NCBI GenBank assembly: GCA_015063245.1
Contig: SUSV01000008.1
Span: forward strand, 1-64,000
DNA: 64,000 nucleotides
From: Thermoplasmata archaeon
GTDB taxonomy: Archaea; Thermoplasmatota; Thermoplasmata; Methanomassiliicoccales; Methanomethylophilaceae
Reading direction: 5' to 3'
Shown here: in pieces, positions 20,043 to 29,619 of the stretch
How positions within the stretch are numbered: the first letter of the stretch is position 1
How the letters are laid out: every line of letters begins with the position of its first letter
Program-made: the position numbers and the translations under genes
Notes under the pieces: generated by a model
Database searches by the model: none
Seen by the model: the letters and a program-made list of their open reading frames with translations, nothing else
Told to the model about the DNA's origin: nothing

Positions 20043-21218
20043 GTGACGGGCCTGCCCATGAACACATTTATTATCCCCGCTGGATTCCAAGACCTTATGG
20101 ACGTGCACGGATTCGTGAAGAAGGAGTTCCTCCTGGTAATCTCCGCGGCCCTTGCGCTGACATCCCTGTTCCTGGTCCCGATGGACACCGTCGCATCCTA
20201 TGACTACCTGAGGATCATGGAGACCATATGCACCCTGCTGTTCTTCCTGCTCATAGTCGCGGGTCTGAAGGAGTGCAGGGCCCTGGACATCCTTGCCAGG
20301 AAGACGCTGTGGAATCTGAGGACCACGACATCGCTCTGCCTCGTCCTGATACTCCTCCCGTTCTTCTGCGCCATGCTCTTCTCGAATGATGTCTCCCTTC
20401 TCACATTTGTGCCTCTGGCCATCACGATCCTCTGCGTGGCCGAGCAGAAGAGGCTGATACCGATAGTGATCATACTGCAGACGGTCGCGGCGAACATCGG
20501 GAGCAGCCTCACACCCTTCGGGAATCCTCACAACCTGTACATCTACAACCTCGATGACCATTACGGATTCACGCTCATGGAATACGAGATGGCGCTGATC
20601 CCCATAGTCATAGTCGGTATAACCGCGGTCATCGCCATGACCATGCTCATACCGAGACATGACCTCAGCGTGGAATTCGGGGAGAGGATCGAGCTCCAGC
20701 ACAGGCCGCAGTTCTTCGTCATCCTCGCATTGTTCGCAGTCGCGATAATCACGGTCCTGGATGTCATACCGTTCTACATCACGGCGGTCGTGATGGTGGC
20801 TGCATTCCTTATCATGATGCCGAGGGTGCTGATGAAGGTGGACTACTGCATCCTGTTCGTGTTCTTCTTCCTGTTCGTGTTCGCCAACGGCATCACGAAT
20901 CTGGATTCGGTCCATTCGGTTCTATCGGATCTGATGGCGGATAACCCTATGATGACCACTGTGGCCGTATCTCAGTTCACCAGCAACGTGCCCGCCACGA
21001 TACTCCTGCAGCCGTTCACCGACGACTGGGCCGCGGTGCTTGTCGGAGCGGACATCGGAGGGTTCGGAACGCCGATCGCATCGATGGCATTCGTCATCAC
21101 GCTTAGGCTCTACCTGCTAAACAAGGATGCGGATCTGAAGCTGTACTTCAGGACATTCATCACCGTGAACATCGTGATGCTGGCTCTGCTGATCCCGACA
21201 TATTATCTGCTTTGTTGA
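20043..21218 (+). CDS. SLC13/ArsB-type anion permease
   Basis: Multi-TM; IILQTVAANIGSSLTPFGNPHNLYIY and VAVSQFTSNVPATILLQPF ion-transporter hairpins. Confidence 0.8.
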   Translation: MTGLPMNTFIIPAGFQDLMDVHGFVKKEFLLVISAALALTSLFLVPMDTVASYDYLRIMETICTLLFFLLIVAGLKECRALDILARKTLWNLRTTTSLCLVLILLPFFCAMLFSNDVSLLTFVPLAITILCVAEQKRLIPIVIILQTVAANIGSSLTPFGNPHNLYIYNLDDHYGFTLMEYEMALIPIVIVGITAVIAMTMLIPRHDLSVEFGERIELQHRPQFFVILALFAVAIITVLDVIPFYITAVVMVAAFLIMMPRVLMKVDYCILFVFFFLFVFANGITNLDSVHSVLSDLMADNPMMTTVAVSQFTSNVPATILLQPFTDDWAAVLVGADIGGFGTPIASMAFVITLRLYLLNKDADLKLYFRTFITVNIVMLALLIPTYYLLC

Positions 21219-21301
21219 TATGACCGGCAACTGTGTGGAAAGGATCGGCCAAGACCAACGATCTCAAGTGAATTATATATACTGAGTATTTGGTGTTTCA
21301 C

Positions 21302-21468
21302 TCAAGACATTGACCGCTGTCCCGGAGACAGCGTAAGGTGTTTGTCGTTGCTCATTAACTGAGCAGCGCTGTCAGCAATTCGATAGCAACACGAATTGCC
21401 AACAGGACCAGAGTCGTGGTTTGGGAATGCGTTGGATTCTGGTCCTTCTTCTTCTCGTCAGCAGGTAA
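21302..21468. repeat. Tandem structured element, copy 1
   Basis: TCAAGACATTGACCG + P1 CGCTGTC-5nt-GACAGCG; TGCTCATTAACTGAGCA; GCAATTCG/CGAATTGC; GGACCAGAGTC-19nt-GATTCTGGTCC. Homologous to 21546-21712. Confidence 0.85.
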
Positions 21469-21545
21469 TTCATCGGACAGGCCACATAACCCGTCATTCG
21501 AATCCCATGAGTGAACAATTATATACGGAGGATTCAGTGATAGAA

Positions 21546-21712
21546 TCAAGACATTGACCGTCGCCACGAGGGCGACGTAAAGTGTTTGCTGCTGCTCATT
21601 AACTGAGCAGCGCTGTCAGCAATACGTAAGCGATACGGATTGCCAACAGGACCAGAGTCATGATTTCAGACTTCTTGGGACTCTGGTCCGGTTTCTCACT
21701 TTCAGCAGGCAT
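21546..21712. repeat. Tandem structured element, copy 2 (244 bp downstream of copy 1)
   Basis: TCAAGACATTGACCG + P1 CGTCGCC-5nt-GGCGACG; GCTGCTCATTAACTGAGCAGC; GGACCAGAGTC-19nt-GACTCTGGTCC (perfect). Confidence 0.85.
21599..21712 (-). CDS. 37-aa peptide with hydrophobic C-terminal half
   Basis: MPAESEKPDQSPKKSEIMTLVLLAIRIAYVLLTALLS*, preceded by AAGGAGGTGAGAA (Shine-Dalgarno-like). Copy 1 encodes ...LPADEKKKDQNPTHSQTTTLVLLAIRVAIELLTALLS* without an obvious ATG. Confidence 0.5.
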   Translation of the reverse strand: MPAESEKPDQSPKKSEIMTLVLLAIRIAYVLLTALLS

Positions 21713-21999
21713 TTCTCACCTCCTTCAGATCGATCCCAGATCACAGTCCGTCCGTTCCATCAGACCTCATAAGGAAGTCTGACGTCTCGGACTTCCTCCC
21801 TGGTCGTCAATTGACTTGGTACCATCCTATATAACTTCGACAAGGGGAGGTGGGTGAAAGTGGAATTATCAAATCCTGGGATTATTATCTAAGGGGCTTA
21901 GATTCGGAGAATATCTGGATGTTAAGCGCCTATCGGAAAATCGTCGAAGGTTCATAGATTCGGACGCAGTGAAAGTGGATGTCACTATTAACATCCGCT

Positions 22000-23301
22000 T
22001 CAGTAATCCCTCATCTCGGATTTCATGTACTCCCTGAGGAGACATGTGGCGTAGTTGCCCTTGGGGAGCATGAACCTCAGTTTGTAGGACTCGTCGGATA
22101 TCTCATAATCGAGGTTCTTCAGCGGGCAGATGATCTCCCTCCTGCTTCCCTTCGAGGTGCATCTGGGGAGTCCGGGGATGACGAAGTCCTCGTGAGAGAG
22201 CTTGTTCTCCTCTATGACCTTCCTCTCGATCTCGCCCATCTCGCCCTCGGCAAGATCCCCGTCGGATCCGAAGAGGGTGATGGTCACGAAGGCCCTTCCG
22301 GCCCTGCACTGCCTTGTCACCAGGTCTATGTTTTTCGATGTGGTGAGGATCGGGTTCTCGTGCTGGGGGATCTTGTTGGCGTCGAGAGGGATGATTATGT
22401 CCCCTTCGACAGGGGTGTTCAGGGGCATCCCCGCATCCATCCTCCTGCTGAGCATCTCGTTGAACAGCCATGACTGATACGCATGGGTGAACATCATCTG
22501 CAGGTTGGGCGGTGCCGCCTCGATGGCAGACTTCCAATCGCCTGGACTGGACAGAAGAGTGCCGACCATCATCTTCTCGAACGACATCTTGGCAGGTATG
22601 GTGCTGTAGAGCTCCGGCCATCTGGAGACATCCTCGAGCTCCTTCCTCTTGATCCTCAGCTCCTCTTCCTCCTCCGGGGTGGAGTAGCAGATGTAGGTCA
22701 TGACAGCTCCCTCGATGTCCCCGCGGACCAGCCTCTCTCCTACGAGATGGGTTACCGGCCTCACGGAACCGAACCTCTGGACGCCGAAATAGTTGGGGAA
22801 CCCTCCGGTCTTCCTTATGATGGACGTGTTGGTCTCCACTGTCTCCTTTATCCTGGCGGGATCCATTGAGCAGTCCCTGACGGTGATCTCGAAATCGTTT
22901 CCTATGAGATCGCCTATGCCGAGGCCTCTGGCACCTCTGTAGACGTTCTCTATCGTCACGTCCTTCAGATCGATCTTGGCGACCATCTCGGGTGTGCCGT
23001 AGAATGACATCAGCTGAGTGGTGACGGCCCTCTTGTCCTTGGTACCTGCGAACCCTATGCGGTCCCTTGAGACGCCCATGCATCTGGACATGAGGCGGAC
23101 CATGCGGTTTGTCTCCCAGTTCCTGGCAGTCACCGTTGCTATGGTATAGTCCCCGTTGGGCTTCTCCCTCGGGGGGTCGGAGATCTCCCTGACGATGAAA
23201 TCCTCGGGGAGGGTCTTCAGATGACCGCCCGTACCGTCGGTGTCGCATAGGTAGTTGCGCATGCCGATGGTGGTCTCGGCGGTCGTGCATCTGCGATACA
23301 C
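22000..23301 (-). CDS. truD: tRNA pseudouridine(13) synthase TruD
   Basis: GRNxxVRLMSRCMGVSRDRIGFAGTKDKRAVTTQ (truD signature), NYFGVQRFGSVRPVTHLVG. Confidence 0.92.
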   Translation of the reverse strand: MYRRCTTAETTIGMRNYLCDTDGTGGHLKTLPEDFIVREISDPPREKPNGDYTIATVTARNWETNRMVRLMSRCMGVSRDRIGFAGTKDKRAVTTQLMSFYGTPEMVAKIDLKDVTIENVYRGARGLGIGDLIGNDFEITVRDCSMDPARIKETVETNTSIIRKTGGFPNYFGVQRFGSVRPVTHLVGERLVRGDIEGAVMTYICYSTPEEEEELRIKRKELEDVSRWPELYSTIPAKMSFEKMMVGTLLSSPGDWKSAIEAAPPNLQMMFTHAYQSWLFNEMLSRRMDAGMPLNTPVEGDIIIPLDANKIPQHENPILTTSKNIDLVTRQCRAGRAFVTITLFGSDGDLAEGEMGEIERKVIEENKLSHEDFVIPGLPRCTSKGSRREIICPLKNLDYEISDESYKLRFMLPKGNYATCLLREYMKSEMRDY

Positions 23302-23763: not shown

Positions 23764-24537
23764 TCAAACGAAGCCTCTTTCCGCATCACGTATCGCGAGA
23801 AGGAGATCATGGAACGTGGTCTTATCGGGGATGAGGTCGGGATTCCTTCCCAATGATGCAAGCATGTCGGCAGTGGGCCTTCCGATGGCTGCTACTTTCA
23901 CGTGATCTTTCATCATCTGGCTATATTGCTCTCCGAACTTCTCCTCCATTCTGTCGAAGAAGGTGGATGCGGACATCGGAGATGTGAAAGCCATCCAGTC
24001 CAGCTCCTTCCTGTCGATGGCTTCAAGCAGCGATTCCATCTCCTCTCCGACCTCTGCGGCTACCAGCTTGTAGGCTGCGATGTCGACGAGCTCCAATCCC
24101 ATCGAGACGATGCCTTTGGAGATGATGTCCGTGCCGCTGTCGGAACGGACCACTATGATCCTTCCCTCATGATATCTCTCTTTTATCATGTCGACGAGAC
24201 CGAACGAGGAGTAGTCATCGGGGATAAGATCGACCCTGACTCCAAGTGATTCCAGGCGTTCAGCCGTGCCCGGTCCGATCGCTATGACCTCGCATACCGA
24301 GATCATCACGGGGAATTCATCCCTGTATTCCCTGCTGCAGTGGTCCGCTGCCGTGGTGGAGCCGAATATGACGGGAACGCCGTTGTATACCGAATCCTTC
24401 AATCTGGCGAATTCCGATGCATCGCCGTGGATGACCTCCAGCGATGGTGCGGCATATACCTTGAATCCCAATGATTCCGCTTCAAGGATTGAATCCTGAA
24501 GCTTGGATGCGGGGCGGGTGAATCCCAATACCGTCAT
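23764..24537 (-). CDS. hemD: Uroporphyrinogen-III synthase
   Basis: Position at the end of the heme operon; IAIGPGTAERLESLGVRVDLIPDDYSSFGLVDMI; VAAIGRPTADMLASLGRNPDLIPDKTTFHDLL. Confidence 0.85.
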   Translation of the reverse strand: MTVLGFTRPASKLQDSILEAESLGFKVYAAPSLEVIHGDASEFARLKDSVYNGVPVIFGSTTAADHCSREYRDEFPVMISVCEVIAIGPGTAERLESLGVRVDLIPDDYSSFGLVDMIKERYHEGRIIVVRSDSGTDIISKGIVSMGLELVDIAAYKLVAAEVGEEMESLLEAIDRKELDWMAFTSPMSASTFFDRMEEKFGEQYSQMMKDHVKVAAIGRPTADMLASLGRNPDLIPDKTTFHDLLLAIRDAERGFV

Positions 24538-25277
24538 TGAAGGTCACCAAGGACATCGCGGAGCGATGCCACGGTACCGACGACCATGATGCCCGGGGGC
24601 TCGAGTGCCTTATCTCTGATGGTGTTCTCGAGATTCGAGACAGTCGTGACCTCGACCCTCTGCTTGGGTGTGGAACCGCTGCAGATTATCGCTGCTGGCA
24701 TATTCGGTGACATGCCTCCCTCGATCAATCCCTTGGAGATGTTGCCCGCGTTGCCGAGACCCATCAGGATGACCAAGGTACCATGTCCTCCGACGAGCTT
24801 CCTCCAATCGATGCGGTCCTCCGAGCGGCCGTCCTTCTCGTGCCCGGTTATGAATGTGACCATCGACGTGTGGTCGCGATGGGTGACGGGTATGCCCGCG
24901 AGTTCGGGTACCGAGATGGATGATGAGACGCCGGGGACGACATGCACCTCCGCGCCTGCCTTCCTGAGCTCCTCCGCCTCCTCGGCTCCGCGACCGAACA
25001 GGAACGGGTCCCCTCCCTTGAGCCTCACGACTATCTTCCCTTCGGAGGCGTACTTCACGAGCAGCTCGTTGGTCTCCCACTGCTTGAGGTGGTGGTCCCC
25101 TCCGCGCTTCCCCGCATCGATGAGCTCCGCTCCCGCCTTGCACTCCTTGAGGAGGTCGGGATTCGCCAACGCGTCGTACATGACGACGTCAGCCTCCCTG
25201 AGAAGCTGCAATCCCTTCACAGTCATGAGCCCGGGGTCTCCCGGTCCCGCTCCGACAAGGTAAACCTTTCCTGTCAT
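24534..25277 (-). CDS. cobA: Uroporphyrinogen-III C-methyltransferase
   Basis: VYLVGAGPGDPGLMTVKGLQLLREADVVMYDALANPDLL; VRLKGGDPFLFGRGAEEAEEL. Confidence 0.95.
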   Translation of the reverse strand: MTGKVYLVGAGPGDPGLMTVKGLQLLREADVVMYDALANPDLLKECKAGAELIDAGKRGGDHHLKQWETNELLVKYASEGKIVVRLKGGDPFLFGRGAEEAEELRKAGAEVHVVPGVSSSISVPELAGIPVTHRDHTSMVTFITGHEKDGRSEDRIDWRKLVGGHGTLVILMGLGNAGNISKGLIEGGMSPNMPAAIICSGSTPKQRVEVTTVSNLENTIRDKALEPPGIMVVGTVASLRDVLGDLQ

Positions 25278-26149
25278 AATGAATCCCTCTTTCCTGTAAG
25301 ATAGTCCGCGATGTCCTGCAGGACCTGCGGACCGTGTTTCCTGGGGACGGCGACGTCCACCTTCCTGGGCTCAGGCGTGTAATCGAATGAGATAGCCCTT
25401 ATGAGCAGCTCATCCCCTCTGATCTCCGCGTTTATCCCGACGGGTGCGGAGCATCCCGCGCCCATGATCCTCATAATCTCCCTCTCGGCATCCACGGCCT
25501 CGCGGGTCTCCTGATGGTCCAGGGTCTTGAGCACATTGATCGCTTCAGCATCATCCGACCTGCATTCCACCGCGATAGTGCCCTGTCCGGGAGCGGGGAT
25601 GAAGACCGTCTTGTCAAGAGTGTGCATAGGCCTCTCGATCCCCATCCTCTCCAATCCGGCCTTGGCCAGGAGGATGGCGTCGTATTCTCCATTGTCAAGC
25701 TTGTTCAGGCGGGTGTGGATGTTCCCCCTGAGCTGCACGATCTCGAGGTCTGGGCGTATCGATTGGATGAGCCTCATCCTCCTGACGGACGATGTGCCGA
25801 CCTTGGCTCCCTTCGGGAGATCTTCTAACGGGCACGGGAGGATCACATCCTCCGGCGAGTCCCTCTCGAATATCGCTACGACTGTGAGCCCCGGCGTCAT
25901 CTTCGTGGGGATGTCCTTGAGAGAGTTCACGGATGCATCGATCCTGTGCTGCAGCATCGCCTCGTCCAGCTCGCGGACGAACGCTCCCACGCTGGACATC
26001 TGGCTGAGGGGCGATTTAAGGTCTATATCGCCCAATGCCTTCATCGATACGATGTCCACCTTCACTTCAGGGTGCCTGGATGCCATCAGCTGCTGGAAGA
26101 TCTCCGTCTGGCGCATCGCCAGCTTGCTCTCTCTGGTCCCTACGATCAT
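25274..26149 (-). CDS. hemC: Hydroxymethylbilane synthase
   Basis: IVGTRESKLAMRQTEIF; VNSLKDIPT; GCSAPVGINAEI (cofactor Cys). Confidence 0.95.
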   Translation of the reverse strand: MIVGTRESKLAMRQTEIFQQLMASRHPEVKVDIVSMKALGDIDLKSPLSQMSSVGAFVRELDEAMLQHRIDASVNSLKDIPTKMTPGLTVVAIFERDSPEDVILPCPLEDLPKGAKVGTSSVRRMRLIQSIRPDLEIVQLRGNIHTRLNKLDNGEYDAILLAKAGLERMGIERPMHTLDKTVFIPAPGQGTIAVECRSDDAEAINVLKTLDHQETREAVDAEREIMRIMGAGCSAPVGINAEIRGDELLIRAISFDYTPEPRKVDVAVPRKHGPQVLQDIADYLTGKRDSL

Positions 26150-27411
26150 TCCTTCACGCTCTCGAAGAATCCCTTGAACTTGTCCTCCAGGACGGTCACG
26201 TCGTCCTTGCTGTGCGCGAGGGACATGAAGTCGACCTCCAATGCGGAGGGCGGGAGGTACACCCCGTTGGCGAGCATGTACCTGAACATCCTGTCGAACA
26301 TCTGACGGTCGGCGGCCATGGCCTCAGTGCCGTTGGTCGCCTTCTCGATACCGAAGAAGATGGAGAACATCGATGCGACGCTGTTGACGCATCCGACTAT
26401 CTTATTGTCGATCATGGAGTCCCTGATCGTGTTTACGAGGGATTCCGTCCTCTTCTCCAGTTTGCTGTAGTTGTCATTGCTGCACATCAGGTCGATTGTG
26501 GCGAGACCTGCCGCGGCGGATACGGGATTGCCTGCGAACGTTCCGGCGACATACACCTGTCCCTGGGGGGCGACGTTCTCCATGATGTCCTTCCTTCCCA
26601 TGAACGCGCCTGCCGCGAAGCCGCCTCCCACGATCTTTCCCATCGTGGTCATGTCCGGAGTCACGTTGTATCTCTTCTGAGCTCCTCCGGAGGATGCGCG
26701 GAATCCCATGATGACCTCGTCGAAGATTAGGATGGTGTCGTGCTCCTTGGTGATCTTGCGCACTTCTTCCAGATAACCTTTCTCGGGTGTGACGATACCT
26801 ACGTTGCCCATCACGGGCTCCATTATCACGCATGCGATGTCGTTCTTGTCGAGGATGTCGGACATGCATTGAGCATCGTTGTATTCTGCAGTGAACGTGT
26901 GCTTCGCCACATCGGCGAGCACTCCTTTGGATGAGGGCACGCCTCCTGCGCTGCCGGAGCCTGCCGCAACGAGAGCGGCGTCATGAGCCCCGTGGAACCC
27001 GCCGTTCATCTTAACGATGTCATCCTTTCCGGTGACGCCCCTGGCGACGCGGATGGCGTGCATCGTAGCCTCCGTACCGGAGCATCCGAGCCTGACCATC
27101 TCGGCCGAAGGCACTTCCTTGACTATCCTCTCGATGAGCTTCAGCTCTATCTCCGAAGGCGCTCCGTAGACGGTCCCCTTGGAGATCTGCTCCTTTGCCT
27201 TCTCCATTATGATGGGGCATGCATGCCCTGCGATGAGCGGTCCGTATGCCATGCACAGGTCGATGTACTCGTTGCCGTCTGCATCCCATACTTTGCTTCC
27301 CTGCGCCTTGTCTATGAACAGGGGATTCGGCTTGAACGCCCTTACGGGACTGGACACCCCTCCAGGTGCCACCTGCGTGGACCTCATGTAGAGCTCGGCG
27401 GATCTGTCCAT
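26146..27411 (-). CDS. hemL: Glutamate-1-semialdehyde 2,1-aminomutase
   Basis: PGGVSSPVRAFK; RLGCSGTEATMHAIRVARGVTGKDDIVKMNGGFHGAHD; TTMGKIVGGGFAAGAFMG (PLP Lys). Confidence 0.95.
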   Translation of the reverse strand: MDRSAELYMRSTQVAPGGVSSPVRAFKPNPLFIDKAQGSKVWDADGNEYIDLCMAYGPLIAGHACPIIMEKAKEQISKGTVYGAPSEIELKLIERIVKEVPSAEMVRLGCSGTEATMHAIRVARGVTGKDDIVKMNGGFHGAHDAALVAAGSGSAGGVPSSKGVLADVAKHTFTAEYNDAQCMSDILDKNDIACVIMEPVMGNVGIVTPEKGYLEEVRKITKEHDTILIFDEVIMGFRASSGGAQKRYNVTPDMTTMGKIVGGGFAAGAFMGRKDIMENVAPQGQVYVAGTFAGNPVSAAAGLATIDLMCSNDNYSKLEKRTESLVNTIRDSMIDNKIVGCVNSVASMFSIFFGIEKATNGTEAMAADRQMFDRMFRYMLANGVYLPPSALEVDFMSLAHSKDDVTVLEDKFKGFFESVKE

Positions 27412-27415
27412 GCTA

Positions 27416-28384
27416 TCACAGCAGTTTCGCCGCTTCCTCGGCGAAGTAGGTGATGATCATGTCGGCTCCCGCCCTCTTGATTCCGAGGAGGGATTCCATC
27501 ATGACGCGGTCGTGGTCTATCCATCCGTTCTGCGCTGCCGCTTTTATCATGGCATACTCTCCTGAGACCTGATAGGCCGCGAGGGGGAGGTCGAAGGTGT
27601 TGGCGGCATCCCTTATGATGTCAAGGTAGGGTCCTGCGGGCTTGACCATGATCATGTCCGCTCCCTCGGCGATGTCGAACTCGATCTCCCTCATCGCCTC
27701 CTTCCTGTTGCCGCACTGCATCTGGTATCCTGCCCTGTTGCCCTTGCCGGGTGCCGAGTTGGCCACATCCCTGAAGGGTCCGTAGTATGCGCTGTAGAAC
27801 TTGGCGCTGTAGGCCATGATCGGGACGTTCTTGTGTCCCGCATCGTCAAGAGCCATCCTGATCGCTGCGATCTGACCGTCCATCATGCCGCTGGGGGCGA
27901 TGATGTCCGCACCGGCATCCGCTTGGGATACGGCTGTCTTCCCGTACAGCTCGATGGTCTCGTCGTTCATGACGTATCCGCTGTCGTCCAGGACACCGCA
28001 GTGGCCGTGGTCTGTATACTCGCACAGGCAGAGGTCGGAGATGACCAGCATGTCGGAGTTCTCCTTGATCCCCTCGATGGCTTTCTGGACCACTCCGTCC
28101 TTGGCGTATGCGCTGGAGCCGACAGCATCCTTGTGCTCCGGCACCCCGAAGACGAGGACGCTGTTGACGCCGTTGTCCTGGATGTCCGACGCTATCTTGT
28201 CGTATCCCTTGAGCGGGAAGGTCCTCACTCCGGGCATGGATGCCGTGGTCTTCTCCTGCGAGATGGTCTCGTCGAAGAATATGGGCAGTATGAACTGGTC
28301 CGCATTGAGCCTGGTCTCCGCTACGAGGTCCCTCATCCTTTCGTTCTGTCTGAGCCTTCTCAGGCGCACTTCCGGGTACATCAT
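27416..28384 (-). CDS. hemB: Delta-aminolevulinic acid dehydratase (porphobilinogen synthase)
   Basis: MMYPEVRLRRLRQNERMRDLVAETRL; SDLCLCEYTDHGHCGVLD; YQVSGEYAMIKAA. Confidence 0.95.
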   Translation of the reverse strand: MMYPEVRLRRLRQNERMRDLVAETRLNADQFILPIFFDETISQEKTTASMPGVRTFPLKGYDKIASDIQDNGVNSVLVFGVPEHKDAVGSSAYAKDGVVQKAIEGIKENSDMLVISDLCLCEYTDHGHCGVLDDSGYVMNDETIELYGKTAVSQADAGADIIAPSGMMDGQIAAIRMALDDAGHKNVPIMAYSAKFYSAYYGPFRDVANSAPGKGNRAGYQMQCGNRKEAMREIEFDIAEGADMIMVKPAGPYLDIIRDAANTFDLPLAAYQVSGEYAMIKAAAQNGWIDHDRVMMESLLGIKRAGADMIITYFAEEAAKLL

Positions 28385-28386
28385 GT

Positions 28387-29619
28387 TTACCTTACTCCGA
28401 ATAATTCCGCCAACACATTGCACGCGCTCAGGTCGCCCTCGCGGGACGCCCTCCTGAGATTCACGTACAGGTCGGCCGTGATCTTGTTCACTAAAGCCCT
28501 GGACATGTCGTCCAGGAGCGTTTCCACGTCAGTGGAGTTTCTGTGGGAGATGGCTGTCTCCAGCTCCCTGTCCCTGATCTCCGCCAGCTTGATGCTGATG
28601 AGCTTGATGACCTCGTTGGCCGTCTCCTCCCTCTTCTCGGAGTCCAGCTTCTCCAGCTCCTGCGCGATGATCTTCTCGGCGGAGCTGATCTCCTTCCTTC
28701 TCCTCTCAACGTTCTGCTGGGCGATGGTCTCCAGCGAGTCCATGTTCTCGAGGTCCACGTTCTCGACCTCGACGATGTCCTCGTCGACGTTGTGCGGTAT
28801 GGATACATCTATGACAAGCAGCTTCCTGTCGGGGCGCTGCAGCATAGCCTTGTATATGGTGGGCTTGTGGAGGACGGTGTGCGGTGCGCCCGTGGCGACC
28901 AGCACGAGATCGCTGTCTGCGATGGCATCCTGCATCCTGTCCATGCTGACTGCGTTCCCTCCCAGGTCGCGGGCCAGCTCCAACGCGCGGCTGTAGGTAC
29001 GGTTCGAGACGAACACGGTGCCCAGATTCTTTCCTATGAGGTTCTTGGCGATGACCGATGCCATGTCCCCTGCTCCGAGGATGGTGATGGCCTTCCCGTT
29101 CAGGTCGCCGATCTTCGATTCCGCAAGCTCCACTGCCGCGGAACCCACGGATACGGCACCCTTGTTGAGCTCGGTCTCCGACCTCACCCTCTTGCCGACA
29201 ACGATGGCCTTCTCGAAGAGACGGGACAGCATCCCGTTGACGTGCCCCTCCTCCTTGGCCTTGAAATAGCATTCGCGGACCTGGTGCTGGATCTGGTCCT
29301 CACCGACTATGAGCGAATCCAATCCGCAGACCACCCTGAACAGGTGCTTGATGCTCTCCCTGTCCTCCAGTATATATGAAATGTTAGAAGATGGGACCAG
29401 TGCACGGATGAGCCCCTCCATGTAGCTGACGATCATGTGGTTGTCCTGGGTGGCGATGTAGACCTCGAACCTGTTGCATGTGCGCACTATGACGTATTCC
29501 CTGATGGCATCCATGTCGGCGATATACTCGGGAACGTAGGTCTCCATGACCCTGACGACGTTGTTTAGCCCTTCCGTGCCTCCGGCGGAGGAATGCGTTA
29601 TGTGCATACTGACGATCAT
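28387..29619 (-). CDS. hemA: Glutamyl-tRNA reductase
   Basis: RTCNRFEVYIA; FRVVCGLDSLIVGEDQIQHQVRECY; ILGAGDMASVIAKNL. Confidence 0.95.
   Translation of the reverse strand: MIVSMHITHSSAGGTEGLNNVVRVMETYVPEYIADMDAIREYVIVRTCNRFEVYIATQDNHMIVSYMEGLIRALVPSSNISYILEDRESIKHLFRVVCGLDSLIVGEDQIQHQVRECYFKAKEEGHVNGMLSRLFEKAIVVGKRVRSETELNKGAVSVGSAAVELAESKIGDLNGKAITILGAGDMASVIAKNLIGKNLGTVFVSNRTYSRALELARDLGGNAVSMDRMQDAIADSDLVLVATGAPHTVLHKPTIYKAMLQRPDRKLLVIDVSIPHNVDEDIVEVENVDLENMDSLETIAQQNVERRRKEISSAEKIIAQELEKLDSEKREETANEVIKLISIKLAEIRDRELETAISHRNSTDVETLLDDMSRALVNKITADLYVNLRRASREGDLSACNVLAELFGVR

Follow-up and report, generated by a model that had tools for sequence, protein, structure and literature searches.

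Two hairpin-rich elements lie in tandem between a CitMHS transporter gene (20043-21218, plus strand) and truD (22000-23301, minus strand) in a 64,000-nucleotide stretch of archaeal DNA (the window), and they raise the question of whether one strand or both are functional and whether the product is an RNA, a peptide or the two in combination. The genome of the window has matches to McrA and PylS, implying a methanogen with pyrrolysine machinery. An earlier note on this DNA had described two 167-bp copies 244 bp apart, proposed to be either an uncharacterised structured RNA family or a type I toxin-antitoxin-like pair. The two copies and their spacing (244 nt from start to start) stand, whereas the length does not, the alignment being slightly longer at 196 nt (21276-21471 and 21520-21715, 77% identity). 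By eye, the minus-strand ORFs next to truD (23764-28423) resemble a tetrapyrrole synthesis cluster.

Conserved hairpins and family distribution

On the plus strand, both copies consist of four hairpins back to back, P1 to P4, located at 21305-21343, 21344-21369, 21370-21404 and 21405-21445 in copy 1 and at 21549-21587, 21588-21613, 21614-21648 and 21649-21689 in copy 2. All four fold in each copy, as had been anticipated for the hairpins beyond P1, with minimum free energies of -61.6 (copy 1) and -65.9 kcal/mol (copy 2) and z scores of -4.6 and -6.1, respectively, which none of 200 shuffled sequences equalled. The covariation claimed for P1 is likewise borne out, the stem being CGCTGTC/GACAGCG in copy 1 and CGTCGCC/GGCGACG in copy 2, i.e. 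with three pairs changed on both sides. Copy 2 is complete, having both TATA boxes, the plus-strand RNA and, on the minus strand, a leader, a Shine-Dalgarno sequence (SD) and an ORF; copy 1 keeps the plus-strand TATA box and RNA together with the reading frame, and has lost the leader, SD and ATG.

A covariance model built from the two window copies gave strong matches in genomes of the same genus and finds a large family, in line with the suggested uncharacterised structured RNA family; the homologs that the earlier note had asked after exist and keep the stems by compensatory change. A second model, built from 32 sequences, matched 32 of the 147 genomes of the order, with 117 matches in all, some of which overlap each other in antisense at a single place. 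Matches with E < 0.001 were obtained in 26 genomes, nearly all from one family, with many copies in tandem and at most 13 non-overlapping places per genome. The element occurs at about 100 places, spread over at least 26 genomes from a single archaeal family, and 92 distinct copies were analysed after removal of overlaps and near-duplicates.

Among 350 genomes of the class, a single weak match lay outside the family (E 0.006, chance level). A blastn search with the element gave matches in its own genome only, a scan of genome contigs with a 15-mer loop pattern gave unspecific matches only and tblastn against plasmids and phages gave no match; in viral contigs, the exact motif had no matches, the P4-P3 pattern had three chance matches and the covariance model had one weak match, located within a long open coding frame. 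No Rfam family lay above the gathering threshold, the window being searched at that threshold and the element and seven homologous loci at a relaxed one. In Pfam-A and NCBIfam, where very short families are hard to match, three representative peptides had no match except NapE (E 0.2). The family is absent from both Rfam and Pfam. At the loci inspected by eye, the element is flanked by ordinary chromosomal reading frames, among which no partner recurs, and the truD-CitMHS neighbourhood was not found in relatives; no empty insertion site could be aligned at truD because synteny is broken. Enrichment of SD-less copies in tandem pairs was not convincing (12/42 vs 13/59).

The predicted plus-strand RNA

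The plus-strand RNA spans 21304-21452 in copy 1 (covariance models R1/R2) and 21548-21697 in copy 2, where it shows covariation and lies antisense to the ORF. Copy 1 has a TATA box, TTATATATA, at 21273-21281 (plus), the motif beginning 31 nt ahead of the RNA model start, and copy 2 has TTATATA at 21519-21525 (plus), 29 nt ahead of it. The proposal that flanking TATATA sequences could drive either strand thus holds for the plus strand, on which the box is about 30 nt before P1, but not for the minus strand, the likely promoter of which is outside the interval then considered (21828-21834). Across the family, 36 of 90 copies have a TATA-like octamer at -42 to -22 relative to the RNA start, whereas the two control windows gave 6 and 8 of 90; the best positions cluster at -31 to -27, a placement expected of an archaeal promoter, to which it probably corresponds. 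Strong TATA matches are limited to about 40-50% of copies.

In the 32-sequence alignment, two-sided compensatory change was observed in 41 of 46 pairs and standard pairs make up 88.9% of pair cells, compared with 72% in shuffled and 35-52% in slid controls. The covariation score is 0.40 (shuffled 0.17, slid at most 0.14), these numbers being flattered by an alignment fitted to the structure, with the controls still far below. In outer P1, G-U and A-C combinations stand at 60:5, an excess which implies that the helix has been selected as plus-strand RNA, and the P1 region has the better fold on the plus strand (p=0.001). TATA position, covariation and G-U asymmetry together support a putative antisense RNA gene that would be driven by a promoter of its own, its product being complementary to the peptide mRNA. 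If this RNA ends after P4, it would leave the SD uncovered.

The predicted minus-strand mRNA

On the minus strand of copy 2, a TATA box (TTATATA, 21828-21834) lies 30 nt ahead of a structured 5' leader (21725-21804, ACCAGGGAGGAAGTCCGAG...), followed by the SD (21716-21724, AGGAGGTGA) and a 37-aa ORF (21599-21712, MPAESEKPDQSPKKSEIMTLVLLAIRIAYVLLTALLS*), the stop codon of which lies in the P2 loop. The ORF, its good SD and a stop within a hairpin had been noted before and were recovered as described; the promoter and the structured leader are additions to that list. The equivalent frame of copy 1 (21355-21468, minus, LPADEKKKDQ...LLTALLS*) is kept as a relic with neither SD nor start codon, in agreement with the reported lack of a clear ATG. 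Comparison of the two frames gives pS 0.20 and pN 0.23, values from few codons (37) that would fit relaxed coding constraint in copy 1.

This arrangement recurs in the homologs. A structured leader (GCCAGGGnGGAAGUCCGG...) precedes the SD and, where detectable, a TATA box lies at the spacing seen in the window, about 30 nt ahead of the leader (27-33 nt in 17 of the 39 leaders found). Among the 91 distinct copies matched by the peptide, 67 have GGAGG beyond P4, as read on the minus strand. The minus strand gives the better fold for the leader (p=4e-7, mean z -2.8) and for P3 and P4 (p=6e-6), and the SD lies within a local hairpin, often paired with CCU just past the start position, which is more stable on the minus strand in 56 of 60 copies (-4.6 vs -2.2 kcal/mol for shuffles). 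The strand asymmetry indicates that the RNAs of both strands are under selection. The peptide mRNA is predicted to be structured and its SD restrained, as is common, although not universal, in type I toxin mRNAs, SD sequestration by hairpins being documented in those of bacteria (PMC6733600).

Some further observations concern this strand. In homologs, the leader has at its 5' end GCCAGGG, the complement of which is found in the ORF as CCCUGGUC, in the P4 3' arm; this pairing could allow a long-distance mRNA fold and is present in some predicted folds. By eye, many homologs have a P1 loop that on the minus strand reads UUCG or is GNRA-like (GAAA, GAGA), and the mRNA 3' end may also use the P1 loop, even though selection on outer P1 is for the plus-strand RNA. 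Two candidate roles were dropped. One was an sRNA mimicking the anti-SD (plus strand, UCACCUCC), a motif already accounted for by the ORF, leader and TATA box of the minus strand; the other was a leader-peptide role, there being no minus-strand gene downstream in the window.

The conserved peptide and its start codons

The peptide is 31-37 aa long and amphipathic, with the consensus ..KDQG...LVLEAIRLLxELL.. and its stop in P2. Mean entropies at codon positions 1, 2 and 3 are 1.0, 0.61 and 1.38 (1.77, 0.66 and 1.61 for loop codons); within the P3 loop, which is unpaired, T is retained at position 2 and positions 1 and 3 vary. For the peptide core, pN is 0.25 and pS is 0.46. These codon patterns support the predicted translation of the minus-strand ORF. 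In 31 genomes, a peptide profile led back, on the opposite strand, to the places already found with the RNA model, a result not independent of that model because the DNA overlaps.

For the single window peptide, AlphaFold2 predicts a helix over residues 12-36, with pLDDT >90 over most of the C-terminal half; the hydrophobic moment of the helix is 0.25-0.56 and the 18-residue hydrophobicity 0.8-2.7. The likeness to type I toxins as hydrophobic peptides of <60 aa is one of size and hydrophobicity only. The helix has internal R and E residues, which make it more amphipathic than type I toxins of the classical transmembrane kind, and three representative peptides gave no match to family models of known type I toxins (Hok, Fst/Ldr, Ibs, TisB, Hol-Tox).

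An in-frame start at a suitable spacing is present in 22 of the 67 SD-bearing copies (19 ATG, 3 GTG/TTG). In the remainder, the codons picked were ATC (15), CTG (6), ATA (5), AAG (5), ACG (4), ATT (1) and others (9), such that about half of the SD-bearing copies have a near-cognate codon (e.g. AUC, AUA or CUG) instead of the expected AUG, near-cognate counts that are overstated because the script favoured such codons among two or three candidates and that come from related copies, i.e. from events that are not independent. The frame and SD are often intact in near-cognate-start copies, and copies of the L141 type have an ATG overlapping the SD. This pattern would be accounted for either by weak initiation at non-AUG codons or by a silenced peptide. 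In-frame stops occur within the peptide frame of several copies (TAG 7, TGA 3, TAA 4). In-frame TAG codons inside the conserved frame are found at loci L135 (both copies), L204, L207 and L234 (both copies), where UAG might be read as pyrrolysine, the window genome having its PylS match.

A candidate toxin-antitoxin module and its alternatives

On balance, we lean towards the interpretation that copy 2 is a two-gene module operating in the manner of bacterial type I toxin-antitoxin systems. The layout of the family, i.e. a tiny helical peptide, a restrained mRNA and an opposed antisense RNA, matches that of such systems, and the earlier suggestion of a type I-like pair is supported as an architecture at the sequence level, with the minus-strand peptide conserved as a protein. 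The case is built from the family itself, both promoter signatures, the covarying structure, the strand asymmetry, the SD sequestration and the peptide conservation. Counting against it are the standard start codons in only 22 of the 67 SD-bearing copies, the in-frame stops, the limited share of copies with a strong TATA match and the internal charges of the helix, along with an alignment fitted to the structure and a plus-strand RNA that may end short of the SD.

Transcription, translation, antisense repression and toxicity, as we infer them, would proceed as follows. The mRNA from the minus strand would carry a stable hairpin at its 5' end and have its SD tied up in a small hairpin, and would encode the 37-aa peptide, which, with a charged N terminus and a hydrophobic amphipathic C-terminal helix, is probably membrane-acting and harmful when over-made. 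From its own promoter, the plus strand would give an RNA of ~150 nt with four hairpins; its complementarity would take in most of the ORF and the 3' part of the mRNA, and pairing would keep the peptide off. Copy 1 would be a tandem duplicate that has lost its leader, SD and start, with only the RNA gene left, and could therefore supply extra antitoxin-like RNA. More tentatively, and with slightly less than even confidence, we propose that the elements, spread across one methanogen family, form a type I toxin-antitoxin family that may be the first in archaea. Many of its toxin genes would have an SD and coding sequence but initiate at AUC, AUA or CUG, which would throttle translation, with retention of the antisense RNA gene.

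The main rival is that the peptide is a non-toxic, useful, small amphipathic membrane-associated protein (e.g. with a stress or envelope role), the structured mRNA of which would be under adjustment by the antisense RNA. The conserved peptide, SD hairpin, antisense RNA and every other sequence feature fit this equally well, and the internal charges suit a peripheral amphipathic helix; however, the patchy distribution among close relatives, the high copy number per genome and the occurrence of tandem duplicates and of decayed copies are more toxin-antitoxin-like than housekeeping, and we consider such a protein rather unlikely. It is improbable that the plus-strand RNA is the functional product, as a trans-acting sRNA or RNP component, with the minus-strand frame an ancestral or decaying by-product: its strong covariation, its retention in copies without SD or start and the missing ATG of many copies would suit this, but the minus strand has its own TATA box, the leader and SD hairpin are more stable on the minus strand, as is the fold of P3 and P4, and codon-position constraint is seen within an unpaired loop. 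Least probable of all is a non-autonomous mobile or selfish (MITE-like) repeat carrying hairpins and promoters, since, although the copies are dispersed, multi-copy, intergenic and beside unrelated genes, and relatives do not share the truD-CitMHS neighbourhood, no terminal inverted repeats surround the unit in the window, no linked transposase was noticed at the loci inspected and codon-level and strand-specific selection is unexpected for a MITE.

Comparison with known systems

If the toxin-antitoxin interpretation holds, an archaeal family with both strands conserved would extend RNA-controlled toxins to another domain and would give these methanogens a testable growth-control module, and the non-AUG codons that recur at the start position open weak-start regulation in archaea to testing. 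The covariance model and peptide profile should aid annotation of genes now missed by pipelines. A 2025 paper on a cyanobacterial case (PMC12390103) states that all earlier finds of type I systems came from Proteobacteria, Firmicutes and Tenericutes, and a haloarchaeal antisense study refers to type II systems in archaea (PMC6523106). In the literature searched, coverage of which was partial, we found no archaeal type I system.

The txpA/RatA and par fst systems have a short hydrophobic peptide, an opposed, overlapping antisense RNA and a structured, SD-restrained mRNA, as is predicted for the archaeal family. The same likeness extends to bsrG/SR4, in which the antisense RNA lies over the toxin mRNA and 3'-overlap antisense control is documented (PMC8309996). 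Compared with these three, the archaeal family has predicted archaeal promoters, an unrelated peptide and an antisense RNA over most of the ORF. In Helicobacter aapA/IsoA, an antisense RNA likewise lies opposite a small membrane toxin, and the SD-sequestering hairpins use 5' UTR or early ORF sequence (PMC6733600). The archaeal SD hairpin, in contrast, uses CCU beside the start codon, and no sequence relation to aapA/IsoA was detected. CreTA is a haloarchaeal RNA-based toxin-antitoxin pair linked to CRISPR-Cas, CreT being a toxic RNA in CRISPR-Cas loci. As an archaeal module with an RNA regulator it resembles the arrangement predicted here, which differs in its conserved peptide and dispersed chromosomal sites.
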